From Nitrospirota bacterium (GTDB taxonomy: Bacteria; Nitrospirota; Thermodesulfovibrionia; Thermodesulfovibrionales; SM23-35), in the NCBI GenBank assembly GCA_013388455.1, contig JACAFF010000023.1, positions 1-51,415 on the forward strand: a stretch of DNA of 51,415 bases, given 5' to 3'. The position numbers and the translations under genes were made by a program. The notes under the pieces are model-generated. The model worked only from the letters and a program-made list of their open reading frames with translations, was not told the origin of the DNA and did not search any database. Positions 14,416 through 33,095 of this stretch are shown in pieces (the stretch's first letter is position 1; each line of letters opens with the position of its first letter).

Positions 14416-15072
14416 ATGAACAAATCTGAAAAACAACAATTTGAAACCCTTTTGAAAAAAAGAGATTTTGATAGTCTTCTTTTTTTATATAAAAAAGATA
14501 GAAAGATTTGGCAGAAAATCCGCACGAGTCTTTATGCCATTGACGAGACAATAAGATGGCCTGCTATCGAAGCAGTTGGTTTTATAATGAAAAGTTGGTG
14601 GGAATCAGGGCATGAAGAAAAGGTGAGAAATTACATAAGAACCCTTTTCTGGTCAATTACAGATGAATCAGGAGGTATTGGCTGGAGCTCCCCTCAGACA
14701 ATAGCAGAAATCATTTGCAATATACCAGAATTAATAGACCCTTACGGAAGTATGATGATAGCATATGCAATAGATGAGCCGCCCCTCATAAAAGGATGCC
14801 TCTGGGGGATTGGGCGATTGGGGGATAAAATAACTGATTCTGTTGATTTTTTTAAAGAAAAAATATTAATGGTCTTTCAAACTGATGATATTGAAATCTT
14901 TGGTCTTGCAGCATGGGCTATGGGAGAAGTTTGTTTTAAGCCAGCGCTACCCTTTCTGGAAAAATTAAAAGAAATAGAAACCCCTGTTAAGATTTATGTT
15001 AAGGGTGAATTCCGTGAAGAACCTTTATCATCATGGGTATATAGAGCGGTCGCTAAAATTGAGATAAAATAA
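14416..15072 (+). CDS. HEAT-repeat-like protein upstream of dsrAB (DVU0298-like)
   Basis: The 218-residue soluble, helix-rich protein has HEAT-like repeats. Distinctive segments are IRWPAIEAVGFIM, GGIGWSSPQTIAEIICNIPEL, CLWGIGRLGDK, FGLAAWAMGEVCF and KIYVKGEFREEPLSSWVYRAVAKI. It resembles the uncharacterised DVU0298 family of sulfate reducers, recalled rather than searched. The C-terminal half of the protein at 20860-21933 carries matching motifs in the same order (ASAWGSLETIGTII, ETTWAIGKIA, GYAAWALGSIGF, KIYIWLDGEMKEI), so the two look paralogous. It is oriented toward dsrA but has its own 257-bp gap before it. Function is unknown; a scaffold or assembly role for sulfite reductase is inference only. 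Confidence 0.75.
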   Translation: MNKSEKQQFETLLKKRDFDSLLFLYKKDRKIWQKIRTSLYAIDETIRWPAIEAVGFIMKSWWESGHEEKVRNYIRTLFWSITDESGGIGWSSPQTIAEIICNIPELIDPYGSMMIAYAIDEPPLIKGCLWGIGRLGDKITDSVDFFKEKILMVFQTDDIEIFGLAAWAMGEVCFKPALPFLEKLKEIETPVKIYVKGEFREEPLSSWVYRAVAKIEIK

Positions 15073-15329: not shown

Positions 15330-16766
15330 ATGGGAATCCCAGGACAAGAGAAGTTATGGGATAAAGAAGAGAAAGAGCATAGGAAATATGAAGATGTGCG
15401 AATTTTTACTGATGAGCAGTTGAAAAATTACACAGAAGACGAGCTAAAAAGCTTCAAGCCAAAACATGCTACCCCAATGTTAAATGAGCTGGAAAAAGGT
15501 CCGTGGCCAAGCTTTGTGAGTGATATTAAGAGAGAAGCATTACATAGGAGAAAACTCGGACAGGATAATTTGATGATACCTTTAGAGGTGTGTGAAGACT
15601 TACTTGGTGTAGTAGAGCTCTCTTATAAAGAAGGTGAAACACACTGGAAACATGGCGGTATTGTCGGTGTTCTTGGTTATGGAGGAGGCGTTATCGGTCG
15701 TTATTGTGACCAGCAAGAAAAATTCCCTGCGGTCGCTCATTTCCATACTGTCAGAATCAATCAGACAGGTGGTAAGTTTTACAATAGCGATTATTTAAGA
15801 CTTGTTTGTGATATCTGTGAGTATCGGGGAAGCGGTATAATGAATTTACATGGTTCTACTGGTGACATGGTTATGCTTGGGACAACTACTGAACAATTAG
15901 AACCTATTTTCTTTGATTTAACCCACGATCTCGGATGTGATATAGGAGGTTCTGGTTCAAACCTTAGAACACCATCCGACTGCATAGGCCCTGCGAGATG
16001 TGAATTTGCATGTTACGATACACTCGACTTATGTTATGACATGACGATGACATTCCAGGATGAATTACACAGACCTGCATTTCCTTATAAATACAAATTT
16101 AAATTTGATGGATGTCCAAATTGTTGCGTTGCATCAGTTGCTCGCTCAGATACAGCTTTTATAGGAACCTGGAAGGACGATATACGGATTAATCAGGATG
16201 CTGTAAAAGCATATGTGGCTGGAGAAATCCCTCGCGATGGTGGTGGAATGGCTGGCGCAAATTGGGGTCCGTTTAACATTCAAGAAGAGGTAATTGATCT
16301 TTGTCCTACTCAGTGTATGCAATGGGATGGTAAAAAATTAACTATTAATAATGCAGAATGTAATCGGTGTATGCATTGCATCAATGTAATGCCAGAAGCA
16401 CTAAGAGTTGGTAAGGATACAGGTTTGAGCATGCTTTTTGGAGCAAAGGCTCCTATTCTCGAAGGTGCTCAAATGGCTGTTTTGACGATTCCATTCATTT
16501 ATGCCAAAAGCCCATATGATAGTATTAAAGAAGTTCAAAGAAAGGTCTTTGACTGGTGGATTGAAGAAGGTAAAAACAGAGAGCGTCTTGGTGAGTTAAT
16601 ACAGCGTATGGGATTAAAGACATTTATCGAAGTTATAGGAATTCCGGCAATGCCACAAATGGTCAAAGAACCTCGTTCAAACCCATATGTTTTCTTTAAG
16701 GAGGAGGAAGTCCCCGGTGGATGGAAGAGAGATATTAACGATTATAGAAGCAGACATCCAAGATAA
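15330..16766 (+). CDS. dsrA: Dissimilatory sulfite reductase subunit alpha
   Basis: DsrA is the alpha subunit of the siroheme/[4Fe-4S] enzyme that reduces sulfite in the cytoplasm. The 478-residue product has the siroheme-cluster cysteines as C218-x5-C224 and C262-x3-C266. An inserted ferredoxin domain has cysteines at about 325/329, 344, 347 and 350 (CNRCMHC). The THWKHGGIVGVLGYGGGVIG and GSGSNLRTPSDC segments are DsrA hallmarks. It is longer than many DsrA proteins (~440 residues), with an extended charged N-terminus. AAGGAGG precedes the ATG. dsrB follows after 18 bp. Confidence 0.98.
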   Translation: MGIPGQEKLWDKEEKEHRKYEDVRIFTDEQLKNYTEDELKSFKPKHATPMLNELEKGPWPSFVSDIKREALHRRKLGQDNLMIPLEVCEDLLGVVELSYKEGETHWKHGGIVGVLGYGGGVIGRYCDQQEKFPAVAHFHTVRINQTGGKFYNSDYLRLVCDICEYRGSGIMNLHGSTGDMVMLGTTTEQLEPIFFDLTHDLGCDIGGSGSNLRTPSDCIGPARCEFACYDTLDLCYDMTMTFQDELHRPAFPYKYKFKFDGCPNCCVASVARSDTAFIGTWKDDIRINQDAVKAYVAGEIPRDGGGMAGANWGPFNIQEEVIDLCPTQCMQWDGKKLTINNAECNRCMHCINVMPEALRVGKDTGLSMLFGAKAPILEGAQMAVLTIPFIYAKSPYDSIKEVQRKVFDWWIEEGKNRERLGELIQRMGLKTFIEVIGIPAMPQMVKEPRSNPYVFFKEEEVPGGWKRDINDYRSRHPR

Positions 16767-16784: not shown

Positions 16785-17966
16785 ATGTCGAAAGGTAGAT
16801 TAGGATATTACAATCCCCAAAAGCCACAAGAAGGCAGGATTACTGATATTGGTCCAGCACATTACAAACAATTAATGCCACCTGTTTTAAGAAAGAATTA
16901 TGGAAAGTGGGTTTCTCACAGAATATTAGAGCCTGGCTTACTGATGCATGTATCTGAAACAGGAGATAAAGCATATACAGTGAGAGCGGGGGCTCCAAGA
17001 GTAATGTCAGTTGAGCATGTTCGTGAAATCTGTGACATAGCAGATAAATATACAGGTGGATATGTAAGATGGACAACAAGAAATAACATAGAATTTATAA
17101 CTGATAGTGAAGATAAAGCTCGAGCATTAAAGAAAGAATTGGATAGCAGAAAGCACGTCGGAGGCTCTTTTAAATTCCCAACAGGTGGCACAGGGAATTC
17201 TATAACAAACATTGTTCATACTCAAGGCTGGGTTCATTGCCATACTCCAGCAACTGATGCTTCTGGTCTCGTAAAATCTGTTGCTGATGCCCTATTTGAG
17301 GATTTTAAAACCATGAGACTGCCAGCAAAACTAAGGGTTTCTATGGCATGTTGTCTAAATATGTGCGGTGCAGTCCACTGTTCTGATATAGCCCTTTTAG
17401 GGTATCACAGAAAACCACCAGCAATTGACCACGATGTTCTTATGAAAGTGTGTGAGATCCCACTTGTTGTTGCAGCATGTCCTCTTTATGCAATTAAGCC
17501 AATTACACTGGAAGATGGGAAAACTAAAAGCGTTCAGGTTAATGTTGAGAAATGTATGTATTGTGGTAATTGCTATACTATGTGTATGGCATTGCCACTT
17601 GCTGACAAAGCGGGTGACGGTGTAGCTATACTTGCGGGTGGTAAGATTTCTAACCGTATTAGCATGCCTAAATTCTCAAAGGTGGTTGTGCCTTGGTTAC
17701 CTAATAATATGCCTCGCTGGCCTGAAGTGGTTGAAACAGTGAAAAAGATTGTAGAAGCTTATGCAAAAGATGCAAGGAAATATGAAAGACTCGGCGATTG
17801 GGCAGAAAGGATTGGTTGGGAAAGGTTCTTTGAAAAGACAGGGTTGGAATTCTCATGGCATATACTTGACGATTATCGGTTAGCATATGATACTTTCAGA
17901 ACTTCGACTCAATTTAAGTATACAGACCATGCATGGGCTGTATCTAAAGCAGTAAGTGGCATATAG
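16785..17966 (+). CDS. dsrB: Dissimilatory sulfite reductase subunit beta
   Basis: DsrB pairs with DsrA to form the alpha2-beta2 core and supplies the surface that binds DsrC. The 393-residue product has the [14 protein letters not shown] segment with C152, the [15 protein letters not shown] segment with C189/C190/C194, and a ferredoxin domain with cysteines at about 232, 257, 260, 263 and 267 ([11 protein letters not shown]). AAAGGAGGG precedes the ATG. It is co-transcribed with dsrA and dsrD. Confidence 0.98.
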
Positions 17967-18033: not shown

Positions 18034-18291
18034 ATGGGAAGAGAAGAAGACATTAGACAGGCCATTCTTGATTACGGTTCAAAAGGAGCAAAAAGCAAGT
18101 TTTATTTTAAAGATATGCTTGCTGGGGTGAAAAAAGTTATCCCTGACACTGGAGCTTCTGAAGTCAAGAATGTAGCTTCAAAAATGGTAGCCGAAGGTGT
18201 ATTGGAGTATTTCTCTACTGGAAGTTCAACTATGTATGGAGTAAAAGGTAGAGGGGTATCTCCTGAAAAAGCTGGTGACACTGGCGGCTAA
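18034..18291 (+). CDS. dsrD: DsrD, winged-helix partner of sulfite reductase
   Basis: DsrD is a small protein found with dsrAB in sulfate-reducing organisms and reported to stimulate DsrAB activity. From the ATG at 18034 the product is 85 residues, with the winged-helix sequence SKFYFKDMLAGVKKVIPDTG ... VKNVASKMVAEGVLEYFSTGSSTMYGVKG. The chosen ATG has an AGGAG site 10 nt upstream and matches the usual length; an in-frame TTG at 17998 would add 12 residues. Its presence supports a reductive rather than a sulfur-oxidising Dsr pathway. Confidence 0.95.
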   Translation: MGREEDIRQAILDYGSKGAKSKFYFKDMLAGVKKVIPDTGASEVKNVASKMVAEGVLEYFSTGSSTMYGVKGRGVSPEKAGDTGG

Positions 18292-18325
18292 ATAAAAGCA
18301 AATAAAAATTTTATTTTTAAGTTAA

Positions 18326-18365
18326 ATCATACGGGTAGCTTTAAAGGCTATCCGTATGATTTTTT
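18326..18365 (+). terminator. Strong terminator after dsrABD
   Basis: ATCATACGGGTAGC and GGCTATCCGTATGAT form a long stem with one G-U pair and a short loop, followed by six T. This ends the dsrABD transcript and separates it from the TPR gene. Confidence 0.9.
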
Positions 18366-18406: not shown

Positions 18407-19123
18407 ATGGAAGATCCAAAAGATATAGAGCGATTTATTTATGAACAGAAGATGAGATTGGCCGAAAAGCCAGAGTGTGCTACTTCTCTTTATAACCTTG
18501 GAGTTGCATATATGGTTCAGGGCGACTTCGATAAGGCGATTGAAGCATTTGAAGAATCTATTGATGTGGGTGTTAGGATGTTTGAGGCTTATGTGAATCT
18601 TGGATATATTTATTTCAAAGAAGGGGATCTTGAGAAGGTTGTTAAAGCTAATCTACGTGCTATTGAGATAGAACCTCGTTATGCAAGGGGATATTCAAAT
18701 CTCGGGTTTGCATATCTTCAGATGGGTAAAACAGATAAGGCTATAGAAGCACTGGAAAAAGCATTAGAATTAAATCCTGAAATAGTCCAGGCAATGTGTA
18801 ATCTTGCAAATGCATATTTGCAGAAAGGTGATATTGAAAAGAGTCTTACAATAAATAAAAAAATGATTGAGCTTGCACCGAATTTTGCACTCGGGCATAA
18901 TAATCTTGCTAATGTATTTTACTTAATGGGAGAATTTGATAAAGCAGTCGAACATTGTAAGAAAGCCCAATCCCTGGGTTTTGAGGTTCATCCTGATTTG
19001 CTTAAGCTTCTTGAGCCGTACAGAAAAAGAACAAAGAAACAGATAGTCGATAGTAAGAATAACAAAAAGAAAATTTCAGCTAAGAATAAAGAGAAGTTAA
19101 AGAAAATTAAACATAAAGAATGA
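18407..19123 (+). CDS. TPR repeat protein between dsrABD and dsrN
   Basis: The 238-residue soluble protein has five consecutive tetratricopeptide repeats from about residue 22 to 195 (for example NLGVAYMVQGDFDKAIEAFE, NLGFAYLQMGKTDKAIEALE). A strongly basic tail of ~30 residues follows (KNNKKKISAKNKEKLKKIKHKE). TPRs mediate protein-protein contacts, so it is probably an adaptor. No signal peptide is seen. Its stop overlaps the start of the YkgJ-type gene as ATGA, which suggests coupled synthesis. A role in sulfite reductase assembly is suggested only by position. Confidence 0.85.
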   Translation: MEDPKDIERFIYEQKMRLAEKPECATSLYNLGVAYMVQGDFDKAIEAFEESIDVGVRMFEAYVNLGYIYFKEGDLEKVVKANLRAIEIEPRYARGYSNLGFAYLQMGKTDKAIEALEKALELNPEIVQAMCNLANAYLQKGDIEKSLTINKKMIELAPNFALGHNNLANVFYLMGEFDKAVEHCKKAQSLGFEVHPDLLKLLEPYRKRTKKQIVDSKNNKKKISAKNKEKLKKIKHKE

Positions 19124-19767
19124 TTGAAGAGCTTTTTTCGCAGTATACTGCATTAGCACGAAAAGCAGAGATCCTTTTTAAAACAATTCAAGAAAAATAT
19201 CCTGATAGTGTTCGCTGTCGAATACGTTGCAGTGGTTGTTGTTATGCAATTTTTGGTTTATTCCCTGTCGAGGCTGCTTATATTAATATGCATTTCAACC
19301 GTCTTGAAAGAAAGAAAAGGAGAGATATACTCAGACGGGCTGAGAAGGCAGAGGTTGAAATGCTCAAAGCAAAAGAGACCCTTAAAATTTTCGATCAAGA
19401 TCAAAAAATGAAGGTTTATGGACTGGGAAAACAAAAAGTGAGATGCCCTTTCCTAAGCGACAGAGATGAGTGTGTTTTTTACGAAAAACGGCCTATTATC
19501 TGTCGTGTTTATGGAGTGCCATATAGTGTTGAAAAAGATAAAAAGGAACATTCTTATGTCTGCGGACTTTCTGCATTTGAAGAAAAAGCTTCATATCCGA
19601 CCGTTAAACTTAACAGAATATATGATCAGCTATGCAAACTTTCACAGGATCTTCTTGTCGAAGGAAAAACCCTCCATCCTGAAAGAAAAGCAACCCTTAT
19701 GATTCCCCTCGCAAGAGTTCTCAGGATGTCCTTTGAAGACATAGTCAAAGGGAATTTCGAAGAGTAG
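19120..19767 (+). CDS. YkgJ family cysteine-cluster protein
   Basis: The 215-residue protein carries the cysteine pattern of the YkgJ/FliB-like metal-binding family: C-R-C-SGCC near residues 31-41, then CPFLSDRDECVFYEKRPIICRVYG (four cysteines) around 109-132, and a later single cysteine (YVCGL). These cysteines probably bind zinc or an Fe-S cluster. It overlaps the TPR gene by 4 bp at its start. Its 3' end overlaps the convergent kinase-like gene by 23 bp. Biochemical function is unknown. Confidence 0.85.
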   Translation: MIEELFSQYTALARKAEILFKTIQEKYPDSVRCRIRCSGCCYAIFGLFPVEAAYINMHFNRLERKKRRDILRRAEKAEVEMLKAKETLKIFDQDQKMKVYGLGKQKVRCPFLSDRDECVFYEKRPIICRVYGVPYSVEKDKKEHSYVCGLSAFEEKASYPTVKLNRIYDQLCKLSQDLLVEGKTLHPERKATLMIPLARVLRMSFEDIVKGNFEE

Positions 19768-20863
19768 AATAAATATTTCCTATGTGTTGTTTTAAATTTT
19801 GATTGATAATTGGAAAGTCCTTTGTCTGTTCATATTGTTTGACAAGCGGATTTATTATTTTTATGAGTTCCTTTTTGCTGAAAGATTTCAATAATTGAAT
19901 AAATTCTTCTGTTGAATGAAAGTAATTCCTGAAATCTGTTTTTAAATTAAGCCCCTGAAAAAAACCTTTGATTGTTGCATCAACGCAGAAATCATCTGCC
20001 CATACTATTTTATTCAAACCATCTATTTTATCAATCCGCATTTGAATGGAGAGAAAAAGGAGAAAATAAACAAGAGCTATTTTAGGATTAGATATCCTCT
20101 GATCATCAAAGCCCATAAAAGATTGGTAGCCACGTGCTGTTGTCAATCGGACATCTATTTTCTTGTCCAAAAATCCCTCTATCTTTACTACAAAATCACC
20201 TGCTGCATGATGCCATGGAAAAATCAATCTGAAACTCTCAATATCATAGTAGAGAGTTAAAATCATTGCAGCTTGTCGGTAAATTTCAAAAGCTTCTTCA
20301 TTTGTAAGAAAGCGATTTCCTTTGCCATATTCCCAGAGTTTTAATCTTTTCTTGCCATCCTTTGTGTTTGAGATATGAAATTCATGATAGCCCTCAAACC
20401 ATTCTTCGAGGAGAAATACCATAGAATTTAGTTCATCTATATAATAAGGTTTTGGAATGTATGGTAAATTGAATTTATTATGAAGCATTTTGAGTATACA
20501 AAATTCATCCATCAGTGCATGTTTGCCTTTTTCAGTAATAGCGACATTCAATCCAAATTTGATTCTCTTCCCATCGACCAGTAGTTCGATACTTGCAGGA
20601 TGATAAAGAGCACCATGTTTTTCAGCGCGAATGACAATTTCTCTCGGATAGTCGATACTTGTCTGGATTTGGAGATTTTCTTTGATTGCCTGAAAAAGGG
20701 GTATGCAATTTTCTTTTGTAAGAAAATCAGTGATAGCAGAAAAATAAACCCTATAGGAGGTTTTTAGAGGGTCTTTTTCCAGAGGAAAGTCAAGTTTATT
20801 AATGTCTGCAGGAATATCCCCAGTTGGTGATGCAACAAGATACCGTATCACTGTTTTTTTCAT
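19745..20863 (-). CDS. Unrecognised protein with protein-kinase-like features, dsr-linked
   Basis: I do not recognise this 372-residue soluble protein. Parts of it resemble a phosphotransferase fold. VDGKRIKFGLNVAITEKGKH could be the N-lobe strands with the nucleotide lysine. ALMDEFCILKMLHNKF could be helix C, and FLLEEWFEGYHEFH a hinge. FPWHHAAGDFVVK sits where a catalytic-loop HxD-type motif would fall, with IVWADDFCVDA further on. There is no signal peptide or membrane helix. Its ATG overlaps the stop of the upstream zinc-ribbon/HEAT gene (ATGA), so the two are coupled. Placement between dsrABD and dsrN suggests a sulfite-reductase-linked role; the kinase resemblance is inference. Confidence 0.6.
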   Translation of the reverse strand: MKKTVIRYLVASPTGDIPADINKLDFPLEKDPLKTSYRVYFSAITDFLTKENCIPLFQAIKENLQIQTSIDYPREIVIRAEKHGALYHPASIELLVDGKRIKFGLNVAITEKGKHALMDEFCILKMLHNKFNLPYIPKPYYIDELNSMVFLLEEWFEGYHEFHISNTKDGKKRLKLWEYGKGNRFLTNEEAFEIYRQAAMILTLYYDIESFRLIFPWHHAAGDFVVKIEGFLDKKIDVRLTTARGYQSFMGFDDQRISNPKIALVYFLLFLSIQMRIDKIDGLNKIVWADDFCVDATIKGFFQGLNLKTDFRNYFHSTEEFIQLLKSFSKKELIKIINPLVKQYEQTKDFPIINQNLKQHIGNIYSTLRNSL

Positions 20864-21933
20864 TGATTGATTTTTTTGATTGCTTCTTTTGCTAACTCAC
20901 CAACTGTTATTTCTTTCATTTCTCCATCAAGCCAAATGTATATTTTATTATTATCGTTTTCAAGATTTTTCAGTTTGTCTAATACATCATTAAATCCAAT
21001 GCTTCCCAGTGCCCAGGCAGCATATCCACGAAGAAAAGCATCAGTATCATCAAGAAAAGACGAAAGAATACGAAAGGCAAATTTGGTCAGGTCGGGTTTT
21101 GTTGTCGCAATTTTTCCGATAGCCCATGTGGTTTCCCTTTTCAGATTTTGTTGAGCTATAAAAGAAGCAAGAGGCTTGACGAATTCTCCGAAAAGGTTAG
21201 GATTTTTACTTATAATAGTGCCAATAGTTTCCAAAGAACCCCATGCTGAAGCGCCTGGATATGATGCGTTCTGTAAGAGATTATTTATTAGTTTGCTAAT
21301 TATATCAGGCCGTTTCTCTGCTACTCTCGCACTAACATCGCCAAGAATGTCAATTATATACCAGCGTGCATGTTCATCTGGTGTATAAAGCATTCGCTGT
21401 AACTCATTGATTACTCTTGAATCCTCTTCTGCAAGAGATAAAAGTTCTACAAGATTATTCTCTGAAACATATTGACGAACTTTTTCTTTAGAGAATTTAT
21501 CTGAACGCAGTTTGTTTTTCTTTATGGGAGTTGTATACTTTAGTTTTTCTTTTACTTTCTCCTCTGTAGCTTCATGAAACTCTCCAAATAGTTTTACGAA
21601 AACAAGCGAACCTCGAACATACCGATCATTGAATATTTTGTCAGGTAAAACACGATGAGTAATAATATCATAATTCCCTATTACAGCATCTGTATAATCA
21701 TCCCCGTAAGAAAGAGAGAAGGCTAAATAGTCATCTTCATTGCAAGCAAAGAGGAGTGCTTCAATAAATGCAGCTCCCAGATTATGTCCTGTCACATCAT
21801 ATGCATATACAGCACCGCAATGTGTGCAAGCTCCTATAGGGAACTCTATTACTTTTCGTTTAGGTAATTCTCTTGGTTGTTCGATTAGGTAATAACAAAA
21901 AGGACAGCGAGGTTCTTCAGATTTAGTTGCCAT
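20860..21933 (-). CDS. Zinc-ribbon plus HEAT-repeat protein (DVU0298-like), dsr-linked
   Basis: The 357-residue protein has an N-terminal zinc ribbon (CPFCYYL near residue 10 and CTHCGAVYAYD near 36). A linker with DDYTDAVIGNYDIITHRVLPDKIFNDRYVRG follows, then a C-terminal array of HEAT-like repeats (residues ~165-357). Motifs in that array (ASAWGSLETIGTII, ETTWAIGKIA, GYAAWALGSIGF, WLDGEMKEITVGELAKEAI) match in order those of the 218-residue protein at 14416. It is therefore a paralogue with an added metal-binding head. A good AGGAG site precedes the ATG. It forms a two-gene unit with the kinase-like gene downstream. Function is unknown. Confidence 0.7.
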   Translation of the reverse strand: MATKSEEPRCPFCYYLIEQPRELPKRKVIEFPIGACTHCGAVYAYDVTGHNLGAAFIEALLFACNEDDYLAFSLSYGDDYTDAVIGNYDIITHRVLPDKIFNDRYVRGSLVFVKLFGEFHEATEEKVKEKLKYTTPIKKNKLRSDKFSKEKVRQYVSENNLVELLSLAEEDSRVINELQRMLYTPDEHARWYIIDILGDVSARVAEKRPDIISKLINNLLQNASYPGASAWGSLETIGTIISKNPNLFGEFVKPLASFIAQQNLKRETTWAIGKIATTKPDLTKFAFRILSSFLDDTDAFLRGYAAWALGSIGFNDVLDKLKNLENDNNKIYIWLDGEMKEITVGELAKEAIKKINQ

Positions 21934-22071
21934 TAAGTTCTCCTTATTTTTTAATCAATTGGTCCTTCAAAGATTTAGTGTAGATAATTCATTATAATAA
22001 AACTCTTAGAAGGATAATTTATGATATTATAAGTCATTGTTCTAAATTTTTTTTGAAAAGGAGGGAAACCC

Positions 22072-22311
22072 ATGCCCATATATGAATTCAGGTGTATTGG
22101 TTGCGGACATATCTTTGAGCTTTTAAAATTGAAAAAGGAGGATGGAAAGTCAGGAATGAAGTGCCCAAAGTGTGGCTGTGAGGAAGTGGAAAGAGTTTTG
22201 AGTACGATAAATGTAGGAACATCAAGTAGTGGCAGAAAAGCAAAACAGACAATTAAAAGTTGTGGTGGTGGTAGCTGTGCCACCTTTGAAATCCCGGGCC
22301 CAAAGAGATGA
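22072..22311 (+). CDS. FmdB family zinc ribbon protein
   Basis: The 79-residue protein begins MPIYEFRCIGCGHIFE and has a second CPKCG knuckle, giving the CxxC...CxxC zinc ribbon of the FmdB (CxxC_CxxC_SSSS) family. The tail is rich in serine, glycine and cysteine (SCGGGSCATF). The original FmdB was proposed as a regulator of formamidase genes, but most members are uncharacterised. AAAGGAGGG precedes the ATG, and the stop overlaps the dsrN start as ATGA, so it is tightly coupled to dsrN. Confidence 0.9.
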   Translation: MPIYEFRCIGCGHIFELLKLKKEDGKSGMKCPKCGCEEVERVLSTINVGTSSSGRKAKQTIKSCGGGSCATFEIPGPKR

Positions 22312-23816
22312 TTCAATATCCGAGGCTTATAATATCAGGCCTCGGTGGAGATAATGGCAAGACAGCCATTAGCACAGGTTTATGTCGTTTATGGCATAAA
22401 GAGTCAAAGAAAGTCATTCCTTTTAAAAAAGGTCCTGACTACATTGATATGGCCTGGTTGAGTTATGCCGCAAAACATCCCTGTTATAATCTCGATCTTT
22501 TTTTAATGAGTAAAGATGATGTTAAATTCTCTTTCAGCCATTATGCAAAAAATTCAGATATTTCGGTTATTGAAGGAAATCGCGGTCTTTACGACGGAAT
22601 GGATGAAGCTGGGAGTGTGAGTACTGCTGAAATAGCCAAGCTACTTCATTCACCTGTCATTATTGTTGTAGATTGCACGAAGGTTACAAGGACTGTAGCT
22701 GCACTAATACTCGGATGTAAGATGTTAGATCCGGATGTTTCCATAAAAGGAGTAATTCTCAATAAATTAGCCGGACACCGGCATGAATCAATTATCCGTA
22801 AGAGTATAGAATTTAATTGTGGTCTATCAGTTTGTGGAGCAATCCCGCGTTTGACGAATATAATATTTCCTGGAAGGCACCTTGGTTTGGTGCCGCCTCA
22901 GGAACACCCGGAGGCTGAAGAGGCGATTGAAAATGCTGCATCTATAGCTAAGAAATACCTTGACCTGGAGAAATTGTGGGAGATCGCCCACGATGCACAC
23001 CCATTATTAGTCAATAGTCAACGGTTATTAAAACAGTCAATTGTCAATAGTCATTCGTTATTGGTAAAGCACAGTGACAAGTTTCAGGTCGCCAATGACC
23101 AACTCAGGGTTGGCGTTATCAGGGATTCAGCGTTTCAATTTTATTATCAGGAAAATCTTGATGCCTTAAAAAAAGAAGGGGTGGAACTTATTGAGTTCAG
23201 CTCGTTAACAGATGACCTCCCATCTGATATTGATGCACTATATATTGGTGGTGGCTTCCCTGAAACACATGCAGAGCAGTTGTCTTCCAATGTAAAATTA
23301 AGACACGCAATCAAAATAGCTGCTGAGGAAGGATTACCAATCTATGCTGAATGTGGAGGACTGATTTATCTTAGCGAAAAGTTAATCTATGGAGGTAAAT
23401 CATATGATATGACAGGTGTTTTACCTATCGTTATGGGAGTAAGCAAGAAACCTGCGGGGCATGGTTATACAGTGATAGAAGTAGAATCACCCAATCCATT
23501 TTTTAAAATTGGACTTATTCTTCATGGGCATGAGTTCCATTATTCGCACGTCCTAAACCTGGAGGAAATCAGTCAGATAGAAAAGGGATACAATGTGGAA
23601 CTCGAAAGTGGAATGCAGATGGGATTATCGACTCTAAAGGATAGTATTTATTTTGCATTTAAAATGAATAAAGGCGTGGGGATAATGAATAGAAAAGATG
23701 GACTTTGTTATAAGAATGTGCTTGCGACTTACACACATTTACATGCACTTGGAGCAAAAGAGTGGGTAGAGGCAATGATACAAGTTGCACTCGTAAACAA
23801 AAAAACAAGCAATTAA
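22308..23816 (+). CDS. dsrN: DsrN, siroheme amidase (cobyrinate a,c-diamide synthase family)
   Basis: DsrN amidates the siroheme of dissimilatory sulfite reductase using glutamine and ATP. The 502-residue product has an N-terminal dethiobiotin-synthetase-like ATP domain (SGLGGDNGKTAISTGL P-loop, KKGPDYIDMAWL, VIEGNRGLYDGMD). A C-terminal class I glutamine amidotransferase domain has the LYIGGGFPE strand and the nucleophile in PIYAECGGLIYL. The linker (residues ~233-266) is unusually long and serine-rich and is encoded by AATAGTC-type repeats. Linkage to dsr genes and to fmdB favours DsrN over a cobalamin CbiA role; no cobalamin pathway gene is nearby. Confidence 0.92.
   Translation: MIQYPRLIISGLGGDNGKTAISTGLCRLWHKESKKVIPFKKGPDYIDMAWLSYAAKHPCYNLDLFLMSKDDVKFSFSHYAKNSDISVIEGNRGLYDGMDEAGSVSTAEIAKLLHSPVIIVVDCTKVTRTVAALILGCKMLDPDVSIKGVILNKLAGHRHESIIRKSIEFNCGLSVCGAIPRLTNIIFPGRHLGLVPPQEHPEAEEAIENAASIAKKYLDLEKLWEIAHDAHPLLVNSQRLLKQSIVNSHSLLVKHSDKFQVANDQLRVGVIRDSAFQFYYQENLDALKKEGVELIEFSSLTDDLPSDIDALYIGGGFPETHAEQLSSNVKLRHAIKIAAEEGLPIYAECGGLIYLSEKLIYGGKSYDMTGVLPIVMGVSKKPAGHGYTVIEVESPNPFFKIGLILHGHEFHYSHVLNLEEISQIEKGYNVELESGMQMGLSTLKDSIYFAFKMNKGVGIMNRKDGLCYKNVLATYTHLHALGAKEWVEAMIQVALVNKKTSN
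23006..23075. repeat. AATAGTN heptamer repeats within the dsrN linker
   Basis: Degenerate, partly overlapping copies of AGTCAAT, AGTCAAC, TGTCAAT and AGTCATT occur across 23006-23075. They stay in frame and encode the low-complexity linker between the two DsrN domains. The unit is the reverse complement of the NACTATT heptamers at 4162-4190. Confidence 0.7.
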
Positions 23817-24630: not shown

Positions 24631-25191
24631 ATGAGTCTGAGAGACCTCCTCGCAGAAAAGAGAACATCTGTTATAAAAAAATGGTTTGACTTAATCATTG
24701 ATAATTTTCCATCTGATTCTTCTAATTTCCTTAAAAATCAAAAAGATCGTTTTCTAAATCCATTAGGGCATACAATTTCTGAAAACATTCAAGGTCTTTT
24801 TGATGAACTTATTCATGATACCGAATCTGAGAAGATTTTTCTCTATCTTAATGACATTATGAAAATCAACGCCGTTCAGGATTTTTCTCCATCAAAAGCT
24901 GTCTCAATTATTTACCTGTTAAAACAAGTTATTAAGGATGAATTGGATGATATAGAAAAAAATAAATTCTCAGAAGACTTAAAGTTTCTTGAAACAAAAA
25001 TTGACAATCTCACCTTTCTGTCTTTTGATATTTACATGAAATTTAAAGAAAGGATTTTTGATCTCAGAGTTAATGAAATAAGGAACATGACATTCGGGCT
25101 TTTAAAAAGAGCTAATCTAATTTCTGAGATAGAAGATTGCGAATCAGATATTAAAGTAGAAACAGTATTAACTCGAAACATAAAGGGGTAA
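24631..25191 (+). CDS. RsbRD_N-like protein heading the dsrMKJOP operon
   Basis: The 186-residue helical protein begins MSLRDLLAEKRTSVIKKWFDLIIDNFP and contains KDRFLNPLGHTISENIQGLFDEL, both typical of the RsbRD N-terminal domain seen in stressosome-type sensors. It has no STAS domain, so only the sensor-like half is present. It ends 5 bp before dsrM and so is part of the operon. Its GGAG site is about 16 nt before the ATG, which is unusually far. A regulatory or sensing role for the membrane complex is inferred from position; proteins of this type next to dsrM are known to me from other sulfate reducers. Confidence 0.75.
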   Translation: MSLRDLLAEKRTSVIKKWFDLIIDNFPSDSSNFLKNQKDRFLNPLGHTISENIQGLFDELIHDTESEKIFLYLNDIMKINAVQDFSPSKAVSIIYLLKQVIKDELDDIEKNKFSEDLKFLETKIDNLTFLSFDIYMKFKERIFDLRVNEIRNMTFGLLKRANLISEIEDCESDIKVETVLTRNIKG

Positions 25192-31409: not shown

Positions 31410-33095
31410 TTAAGAAACACCTATTTTACTCTTGCAGATTGTGGAGAATTCAATTGCTTCCTTTGACTCCGGAAACTTTTGAAAGCACTTTAATGCTTCT
31501 TCATATTTTTTTAAATTCATATATGTGATACCGAGACACATAGTTAAAGACTCGCTTTGAGGAAAATATTTTATTCCTTCAGAAAGTATTCTGGAAGATT
31601 CCATAAAATTTCCTTTCTTTTGCCAGATTATCCCTAATCCAAGATAAGCTCTGTGGTTTGGATAATATAACAATGATCTCTCATAAAGCTTTTGAGCAAT
31701 TTTTTCTTTTTGTGGTATTGCTTCAATTGTCGCATAATCTCCGTGGCTGAAAGTCATTGCCAGCCTTGATAGAAAATCAGCATGGTGTTCATAAAGATCT
31801 TTCAGATCTAAGAGCTGGATTGCATCTGTAAACTCTGGAAGATGATTGTAATAATAGGTTCTGAGCTTCTTACCAAAAGAAAGTATCACGTCTTTCGATA
31901 ATCGAGGGTCTGTTTCAAAATACATAATATCTTCTATCCTTTGCAACCAGATATCATCTCCTATTTTCATTCTTCGTTTAAAGTCATCATATAATGCTGT
32001 GCCTGGAAATATATCAAGAATATAAAATATTGTACTAAGAGGCTTAATCTCGTGAATTAAATTTAAAGACTCCTCTATGGTTTCCCAGCTTTCTCCTGGT
32101 GAACCATAAATAAAATAGGCACGGGCAAGAATTCCGAATTTTGTGGTTAAATCAAAAGCGTTTTTGATATCCTCTGTTCGTATATTTTTATTCAAAACTT
32201 TTCTAATTTTTTCAGAGCCACTTTCTACACCGTAGCTGATTTGAACGCAGCCTGCCTTTCTCATCCAGTAGAGAATCTCTTCATTTATAAAATTAACCCG
32301 TGAGATTGCAAACCAGTTGATTTTCAGGTCTTTCTCAATAATTCTTTTACAGATCTGAATAACCCGATCTTTTCTCATGGTAAATGTATCATCTGAAAAA
32401 TAAAAGAACGTAATCCCTCTTTGATAGAGTAAATCTATCTGCTTTATAAAATATTCTGGAGAGTGAAATCTGACTTTGTGTCCCCAGAACTTGGGAGAGC
32501 CGCAGAATGTGCAGTTGGAAGGACATCCTCGCGAAGAAGAGAGGTGTTGAAAATCAAAATATTTCGCAGGCATGGGAATTTGATCAATGTCCTGTATCAT
32601 ATCCGCATCAAGTGTCTTGGTTACTTTTTTACCTTCACGATATGCGATTCCTTTTATTTGATGGATACCTTCTAAATCTTTACTTTCGAGACACTTAATC
32701 AGATTGAGAAAACTTATTTCTCCCTCACCGAGAACAGCATAATCAATTTCTTTAAAATTTGTAAGCAGATGCTTCCAGAGAAAAGTTGTTCCAATTCCAC
32801 CAAATACAATTTTTACATCAGGAAGAATTTGTTTTGCAATTCTACTAATATCTATCCCCCCCCAACGGTTAGCATTAACAATAGAAAATCCTATAACATC
32901 AGGTTTTTTCTCTTTGAGGGTTTCTTCTATTTTATGAGGTGCTTTATGAATATTGTGCCAGTTTAGTATTTCTACATCGTATGAATTTTCTTTTAAAACT
33001 GCGCCAATGTAATATAAACCGATTGGTATAATTCCAACATCCTCTGCGTGAATTCTTTCATCAAGAAAATAAGGATAAATAAGGAGTATTTTCAA
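31410..33095 (-). CDS. B12-binding radical SAM protein with C-terminal TPR repeats
   Basis: The 561-residue protein has an N-terminal cobalamin-binding-like domain (residues ~1-140, with GIIPIGLYYIGAVLKENSYDVEILN). A radical SAM domain follows with C191-x3-C195-x2-C198 (GCPSNCTFCGS), and then a region with YGVESGSEKIRKVLNK and YFIYGSPGESWETIEESL. The last ~110 residues look like two or three TPRs. The classical DxHxxG B12 motif is not visible, as in many members of this class. Substrate is unknown; related enzymes methylate or rearrange lipids, hopanoids or natural products. A run of eight G in the coding strand (32856-32863) is a possible slippage site. Confidence 0.88.
   Translation of the reverse strand: MKILLIYPYFLDERIHAEDVGIIPIGLYYIGAVLKENSYDVEILNWHNIHKAPHKIEETLKEKKPDVIGFSIVNANRWGGIDISRIAKQILPDVKIVFGGIGTTFLWKHLLTNFKEIDYAVLGEGEISFLNLIKCLESKDLEGIHQIKGIAYREGKKVTKTLDADMIQDIDQIPMPAKYFDFQHLSSSRGCPSNCTFCGSPKFWGHKVRFHSPEYFIKQIDLLYQRGITFFYFSDDTFTMRKDRVIQICKRIIEKDLKINWFAISRVNFINEEILYWMRKAGCVQISYGVESGSEKIRKVLNKNIRTEDIKNAFDLTTKFGILARAYFIYGSPGESWETIEESLNLIHEIKPLSTIFYILDIFPGTALYDDFKRRMKIGDDIWLQRIEDIMYFETDPRLSKDVILSFGKKLRTYYYNHLPEFTDAIQLLDLKDLYEHHADFLSRLAMTFSHGDYATIEAIPQKEKIAQKLYERSLLYYPNHRAYLGLGIIWQKKGNFMESSRILSEGIKYFPQSESLTMCLGITYMNLKKYEEALKCFQKFPESKEAIEFSTICKSKIGVS

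Follow-up and report, generated by a model that had tools for sequence, protein, structure and literature searches.

A four-gene module co-inherited with one DsrAB clade across three bacterial phyla

Sulfate respiration depends on DsrAB as its central enzyme, and to our knowledge little is known of how its coupled siroheme/Fe-S centers are acquired. The window analyzed here, a 51,415-nucleotide stretch of a genome of the Nitrospirota family SM23-35 (contig JACAFF010000023.1), carries a dsr locus in which a cassette of four genes lies between dsrABD and fmdB-dsrN. On the plus strand, the gene of a TPR protein of ~238 residues with five repeats (18407-19123) is followed by that of a YkgJ-like CxxCxxCC protein of 215 residues (19120-19767), the two overlapping by 4 bp as ATGA at 19120-19123. 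Facing them on the minus strand are the genes of a kinase-like protein of 372 residues, named KIN here (19745-20863), and of a 357-residue Zn-ribbon and HEAT protein, Zn-HEAT (20860-21933), whose C-terminal part belongs to the DVU0298 family (NCBIfam NF045662); these also share 4 bp (20860-20863). The two pairs meet in a 23-bp convergent overlap of the YkgJ and KIN 3' ends (19745-19767). The open reading frame list agrees in coordinates and strands with a preliminary description of this DNA, which had reported two coupled antiparallel pairs with overlaps of 4, 23 and 4 bp, and its TPR, YkgJ and HEAT labels are borne out by domain searches. The evidence strongly supports a link of the four genes with Dsr, as an accessory module dedicated to it and co-inherited with one DsrAB clade: the KIN, YkgJ and HEAT families are nearly confined to genomes with dsrA, and the cassette takes varied arrangements at dsr and has been transferred with DsrAB.

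The cassette arrangement is not due to chance, as all 14 genomes of the family that possess it share the gene order and have nearly the same overlaps (15 loci, including a second copy in genome G009). The family layout is dsrA-dsrB-dsrD-TPR-YkgJ><KIN-ZnHEAT, then usually fmdB-dsrN and dsrC-dsrMKJOP. The YkgJ/KIN overlap spans 20-32 bp, always 2 mod 3, and that of Zn-HEAT and KIN is mostly 4 bp; in a few genomes the TPR/YkgJ and Zn-HEAT/KIN junctions widen into gaps. The second block of G009 (L024, contig C92), a diverged dsrD-TPR-YkgJ><KIN-ZnHEAT-fmdB-dsrN set on another contig whose KIN is 48% identical to that of the window, may represent either a further dsr locus or contamination. The layout is kept in Desulfobacterota as well, with its constant-phase 3'-3' overlap: among Desulfobacterota and Bacillota, 16 of the 17 loci in which YkgJ and KIN are convergent neighbors overlap by 20-62 bp, again always 2 mod 3. 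Outside the family the arrangements vary, with convergent pairs downstream of dsrD (e.g., L074, L084 and L085), TPR-KIN directly upstream of dsrA (e.g., L091, L102 and L127), or, in some Desulfobacterota, KIN-TPR-ZnHEAT after dsrP in the dsrMKJOP cluster (L078 and L082). Genome G353 retains an intact cassette ~225 kb away from dsrABD.

Of 41 relatives searched, those with KIN all belong to the family of the window, and among 296 Nitrospirota genomes, 133 of which possess dsrA, KIN occurs in nine, all from this family. A scan of GTDB genomes yielded 257 KIN relatives, the best 80 of which come from the window's family, Desulfobacterota-type metagenome-assembled genomes and two Bacillota. In the 65 KIN loci outside the family, dsrA is visible within the retrieved stretch in 48 and TPR in 55, several of the loci without them lying on short contigs. 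In a sample of 198 Desulfobacterota genomes, 99 of them with dsrA, KIN was found in 29 (28 with dsrA, Fisher p 7e-9), cassette-type YkgJ, defined by E below 1e-40, in 47 (46 with dsrA, p 4e-16) and the DVU0298 HEAT family in 88 (83 with dsrA, p 1e-32), while the latter is present in 123 of the 296 Nitrospirota (119 with dsrA, p 1e-60); the p-values are descriptive, as genomes share ancestry and are not independent. In both phyla, the distribution of the DVU0298 family nearly coincides with that of dsrA, and in these samples the KIN, YkgJ and HEAT families show the confinement to dsr-bearing genomes expected of a Dsr-specific accessory module, instead of being equally common away from dsr. Of the 28 dsrA-positive Desulfobacterota with KIN, 21 have it at most ~10 kb from dsrA. 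The co-occurrence of YkgJ with dsrA exceeds mere linkage, because only 17 of the 46 dsrA-positive carriers have YkgJ close to dsrA, the gene lying more than 10 kb off or on another contig in the remaining 29. To note, one Desulfobacterota KIN (L194, contig C31 of G411) belongs to a genome in which the search found no dsrA, possibly owing to an assembly gap.

Other sulfate reducers, in Desulfobacterota and Bacillota, do possess the cassette genes, but the set is not general among them. KIN is absent from 71 of the 99 dsrA-positive Desulfobacterota and from 125 of the 133 dsrA-positive Nitrospirota, and the native Nitrospirota and native Desulfotomaculales dsr loci sampled have neither TPR nor YkgJ. 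With these absences the cassette cannot be a universal siroheme/Fe-S insertion machine, and the preliminary description, which had suggested a maturation or regulatory machine for such insertion, is partly supported.

The presence of the cassette follows the type of DsrAB. The DsrAB tree places the window's family within Desulfobacterota, beside a Desulfofervidaceae sequence, and at a long distance from the other members of its order and from G001 and G005; these two members of the same family carry a native, divergent DsrAB, ~52% identical to that of the window, with no cassette beside it. The placement of DsrN follows that of DsrAB, while DsrC and DsrK are nearest to native Nitrospirota relatives, which argues that dsrA to dsrN moved as a block; the DsrM tree agrees with the native affinity of DsrC and DsrK, less clearly. 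Since omp85 adjoins dsrA in replaced and native loci alike, this block, with the cassette inside it, probably took the place of the native genes at their original site. That family SM23-35, and also Desulfotomaculum, acquired dsrAB laterally has been published (PMC10591310), and we infer that the transfer seen in the window is very probably the same SM23-35 event. Of 100 Desulfotomaculales genomes, 73 have dsrA and two have KIN. All 17 sampled Desulfotomaculales loci with acquired-type dsrAB harbor TPR and Zn-HEAT (15 KIN-less, with DsrA 66-70% identical to that of the window, and two KIN-bearing) and 10 of them harbor YkgJ, whereas the 17 sampled native dsrAB loci (DsrA 49-54% identical) contain none of the four genes. 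These loci show that the cassette moved with Desulfobacterota-type DsrAB into Nitrospirota and Bacillota and that it is absent beside native DsrAB. TPR and Zn-HEAT form the core of the module, as they are kept where KIN, and sometimes YkgJ, is missing; KIN was rejected as a core component, being absent from 15 Desulfotomaculales loci that retain the other two, and is the most dispensable member.

Cassette-type DsrA itself begins with a stretch of ~45 additional residues that closes with a motif like KYDELRIYTDEELNNYTEEELKNFKIKH and is absent from every other DsrA sampled. In the window, this extension covers about residues 1-46 (KYEDVRIFTDEQLKNYTEDELKSFKPKH, 15330-15467, plus strand) and it is found only in the cassette-bearing DsrAB clade. 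A profile built from window-family sequences only gave bimodal scores, at least 29 bits or at most 2.6 bits, which split all loci cleanly. The differences at the three codon positions (0.23/0.12/0.57 per codon) indicate selection at the protein level. TPR is adjacent to dsr in 38 of 39 extension-bearing loci against 30 of 86 without the extension, and full-length Zn-HEAT in 35 of 39 against 2 of 86, some of the missing neighbors being explained by contig ends. The tie with KIN, found beside extension-bearing DsrA in 22 of 39 loci against 29 of 86, is weak and was set aside. A strict two-way tie between extension and Zn-HEAT was rejected too, full-length Zn-HEAT-like frames also occurring in genomes with extension-less DsrA. 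In a tree made without the extension columns, the extension has a single origin (99% support in the Shimodaira-Hasegawa-like approximate likelihood ratio test), so that its link with the module holds at the level of a clade, with two transfers between phyla adding strength to it. Module and extension have traveled with one DsrAB branch across three bacterial phyla.

The domain content of three of the proteins is readily recognized. The TPR protein matches PF00515 (TPR_1) with 158.5 bits over five stretches, indicating tandem repeats. YkgJ matches PF03692 with 27.3 bits, above the curated cut-off of 23, and eight of its cysteines (C33, C37, C40, C41, C109, C118, C128 and C148) are invariant in 25 sequences across phyla; the CxxCxxCC family is annotated as putatively Zn/Fe chelating. 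Zn-HEAT matches HEAT_2 and, with 173 bits (cut-off 75), the DVU0298 family. Its N-terminus has no Pfam zinc-ribbon match over cut-off, and its two cysteine pairs (C10/C13 and C36/C39, invariant in 29 sequences) are those of a predicted zinc ribbon with putative zinc binding. The Zn-HEAT model, with a predicted local distance difference test (pLDDT) score of 90, is armadillo/HEAT-like, and Foldseek returned mainly designed and natural armadillo/HEAT repeats. A second DVU0298-family HEAT protein is encoded upstream of dsrA (14416-15072, plus strand) and matches the profile over its whole length (139 bits, same cut-off), so that two paralogues flank dsrABD.

KIN has no Pfam match, kinase families included, and searching solved structures by sequence turned up no relative. 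Its AlphaFold2 model (pLDDT 86.1, predicted template modeling score 0.87) returned kinases in Foldseek (E 2e-5), and the best VIA-align match is PsiK (Z 13.5, root-mean-square deviation 4.7 over 255 residues), with NahK and APH(2'') close behind, so that KIN is predicted to adopt a two-lobed protein-kinase-like fold. Invariant or nearly invariant residues in 78 sequences include E81, K82, H83, G84, H88, E120, W155, E161, H163, W177, the segment W217-H218-H219-A-A-G-D223-F, R244, R276, D278 and H360. The HxD/HRD aspartate is not found in the loop between helix 188-205 and strand 224-229, which reads W217-H-H-A-A-G-D-F, nor a DFG/DxD metal-binding aspartate after strand 8, where the segment is L240-T-T-A-R244, this register of the catalytic site being taken from secondary structure and not from coordinates. 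As neither aspartate is recognizable, an ordinary kinase was rejected and KIN is probably a pseudokinase. The "possible phosphotransferase" of the preliminary description thus stands for the fold but not for the catalytic motifs.

The other features of the locus complete this picture. The Desulfobacterota-type, laterally acquired dsrA (15330-16766, plus strand) is followed by dsrB (16785-17966) and by a dsrD frame (PF08679, 17998-18291) that opens with TTG, the conserved domain suggesting that the true start is probably an ATG near 18034. In the gap between dsrD and TPR, a terminator-like hairpin (18324-18362, plus strand; 18-pair stem, 3-nucleotide loop, T-rich tail) indicates that the cassette is probably transcribed separately from dsrABD. 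Beyond Zn-HEAT, a divergent intergenic region of 138 bp (21934-22071) separates the minus-strand pair from the plus-strand genes of an FmdB-family zinc ribbon (22072-22311) and of DsrN, a CbiA-like siroheme amidase (22308-23816) that groups with Desulfobacterota by sequence, like DsrAB; these two genes overlap by 4 bp. An RsbRD N-terminal-domain protein is encoded immediately 5' of dsrM (24631-25191, plus strand), a position kept at many loci. A B12-binding radical SAM protein with C-terminal TPR (31410-33095, minus strand) has homologues of 64-67% identity adjoining dsrN/dsrC in three Desulfobacterota loci (L073, L074 and L075) and is possibly another Dsr-linked gene.

Given their shared history with this DsrAB branch, the four genes very probably contribute to making or operating the enzyme. 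The reading that we favor, with evenly balanced confidence, is that the cassette may be an accessory module, for assembly or holding, of the cassette-type DsrAB subtype. This role is preferred over signaling because of the helical-repeat adaptors, the Cys-rich metal binder, the presence of DsrN in the transferred block and the lability of KIN. Zn-HEAT and TPR, both helical-repeat peptide binders, would recognize freshly synthesized DsrA, for which the extension (YTDEELxNYTEEELKNFK) is a plausible binding site, and would hold the protein during DsrAB assembly. YkgJ, with its invariant cysteines, might supply or guard a metal or Fe-S center. The pseudokinase-like KIN would be a scaffold or a nucleotide-sensing regulator, the part most easily lost, and DsrN would finish the siroheme. 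The module may also have a share in siroheme/Fe-S maturation. A more specific version, in which the extension is a client tag read by TPR and Zn-HEAT, the pseudokinase a nucleotide- or cofactor-sensing subunit and the whole a first dedicated chaperone/assembly system for DsrAB, is offered as a tentative suggestion. Several observations weigh against the assembly role. The HEAT family is missing in 16 of the 99 dsrA-positive Desulfobacterota, so DsrAB can be made without it; TPR and KIN also accompany DsrA without the extension; several lineages with cassette-type DsrAB have lost YkgJ and KIN or carry them unlinked; and the tie between extension and module amounts to one origin and two transfers, not many independent events.

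The main rival is docking, in which the repeat proteins, instead of building the enzyme, would use the extension to anchor mature DsrAB to DsrC/DsrMKJOP or further partners in a metabolon, tuning electron or sulfur flow. The position of cassette genes after dsrP in L078 and L082 and the resemblance of the acidic tandem motif of the extension to a docking peptide speak for it; TPR and HEAT folds by themselves are not decisive, but DsrC and DsrMKJOP were not co-transferred in the window's family, making a partner specific to foreign DsrMK unlikely, and we regard docking as rather unlikely overall. Regulatory phosphotransfer, with KIN an active atypical kinase acting on DsrAB, DsrD or a partner and TPR/HEAT as adaptors, would fit the similarity to PsiK, NahK and APH(2'') and the strongly conserved E81-K82-H83-G84 loop and W217 motif, the more so as the atypical enzymes SelO and UbiB act with altered motifs. 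It seems improbable given that aspartates are missing at the expected HRD and DFG places and that KIN is most often the member lost while TPR and Zn-HEAT stay.

A metal or thiol redox role centered on YkgJ and apart from DsrAB assembly, e.g., protection from sulfite, sulfide or oxygen, would account for the eight cysteines and the chelating annotation of its family, but it leaves unexplained the tie to a DsrAB type rather than to sulfite reduction generally, and we hold it to be distinctly improbable. Passive hitch-hiking, by which the genes would be bound to dsr by location only and carried along in transfers, is already disfavored and appears very improbable: a single main DsrAB clade and a gene order that could be frozen are compatible with it, but the co-occurrence holds for unlinked YkgJ, arrangements vary by lineage and G353 keeps the module at a distance from dsr. 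Returning to the assembly or holding role, the four uncharacterized families, DVU0298 included, become concrete candidates in the acquisition of the siroheme/Fe-S centers by DsrAB, and the module would, if this role is true, provide a genetic handle on Dsr maturation. Thanks to the two natural inter-phylum transfers, DsrAB enzymes that have the module can readily be compared with those that lack it.

Among systems already described, redox-enzyme chaperones of the TorD/NarJ type are enzyme-specific accessory proteins whose client bears a conserved N-terminal peptide. The cassette may work alike, with DsrA as the client and putative binding of its N-terminal peptide; it differs in its TPR/HEAT folds, and no twin-arginine signal was seen in the DsrA extension. 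UbiB/COQ8 and SelO have a protein-kinase-like fold with an altered active site and work beside a metabolic enzyme complex. KIN would resemble them in fold and altered site but has no detectable sequence similarity to solved kinases or Pfam kinase families. The DVU0298 family, to which the C-terminal part of Zn-HEAT and the whole of the 14416-15072 protein belong above the curated cut-off, is a family without assigned function. The cassette copy stands out by its fusion with a Zn-ribbon domain and by the coupling of its gene to that of the probable pseudokinase KIN. The dsrAB transfer of the window very probably corresponds to that published for SM23-35 alongside Desulfotomaculum (PMC10591310), from which the present account differs by the co-arrival of the cassette and the DsrA extension, unreported in the literature searched. 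Open-licence full texts contained no report of the cassette, of a DVU0298 linkage to Dsr or of the extension, DVU0298 being named once, as a gene-list table entry in a review of CO as electron donor. The Dsr accessory genes already known are dsrD, encoding an allosteric activator (PMC10591310), and dsrN, encoding a siroheme amidase (PMC10504309). Like these, the cassette is a small set of genes placed at dsrAB and found mostly in Dsr organisms; unlike them, it is less widespread, is unrelated to them in sequence and tracks the DsrAB subtype.

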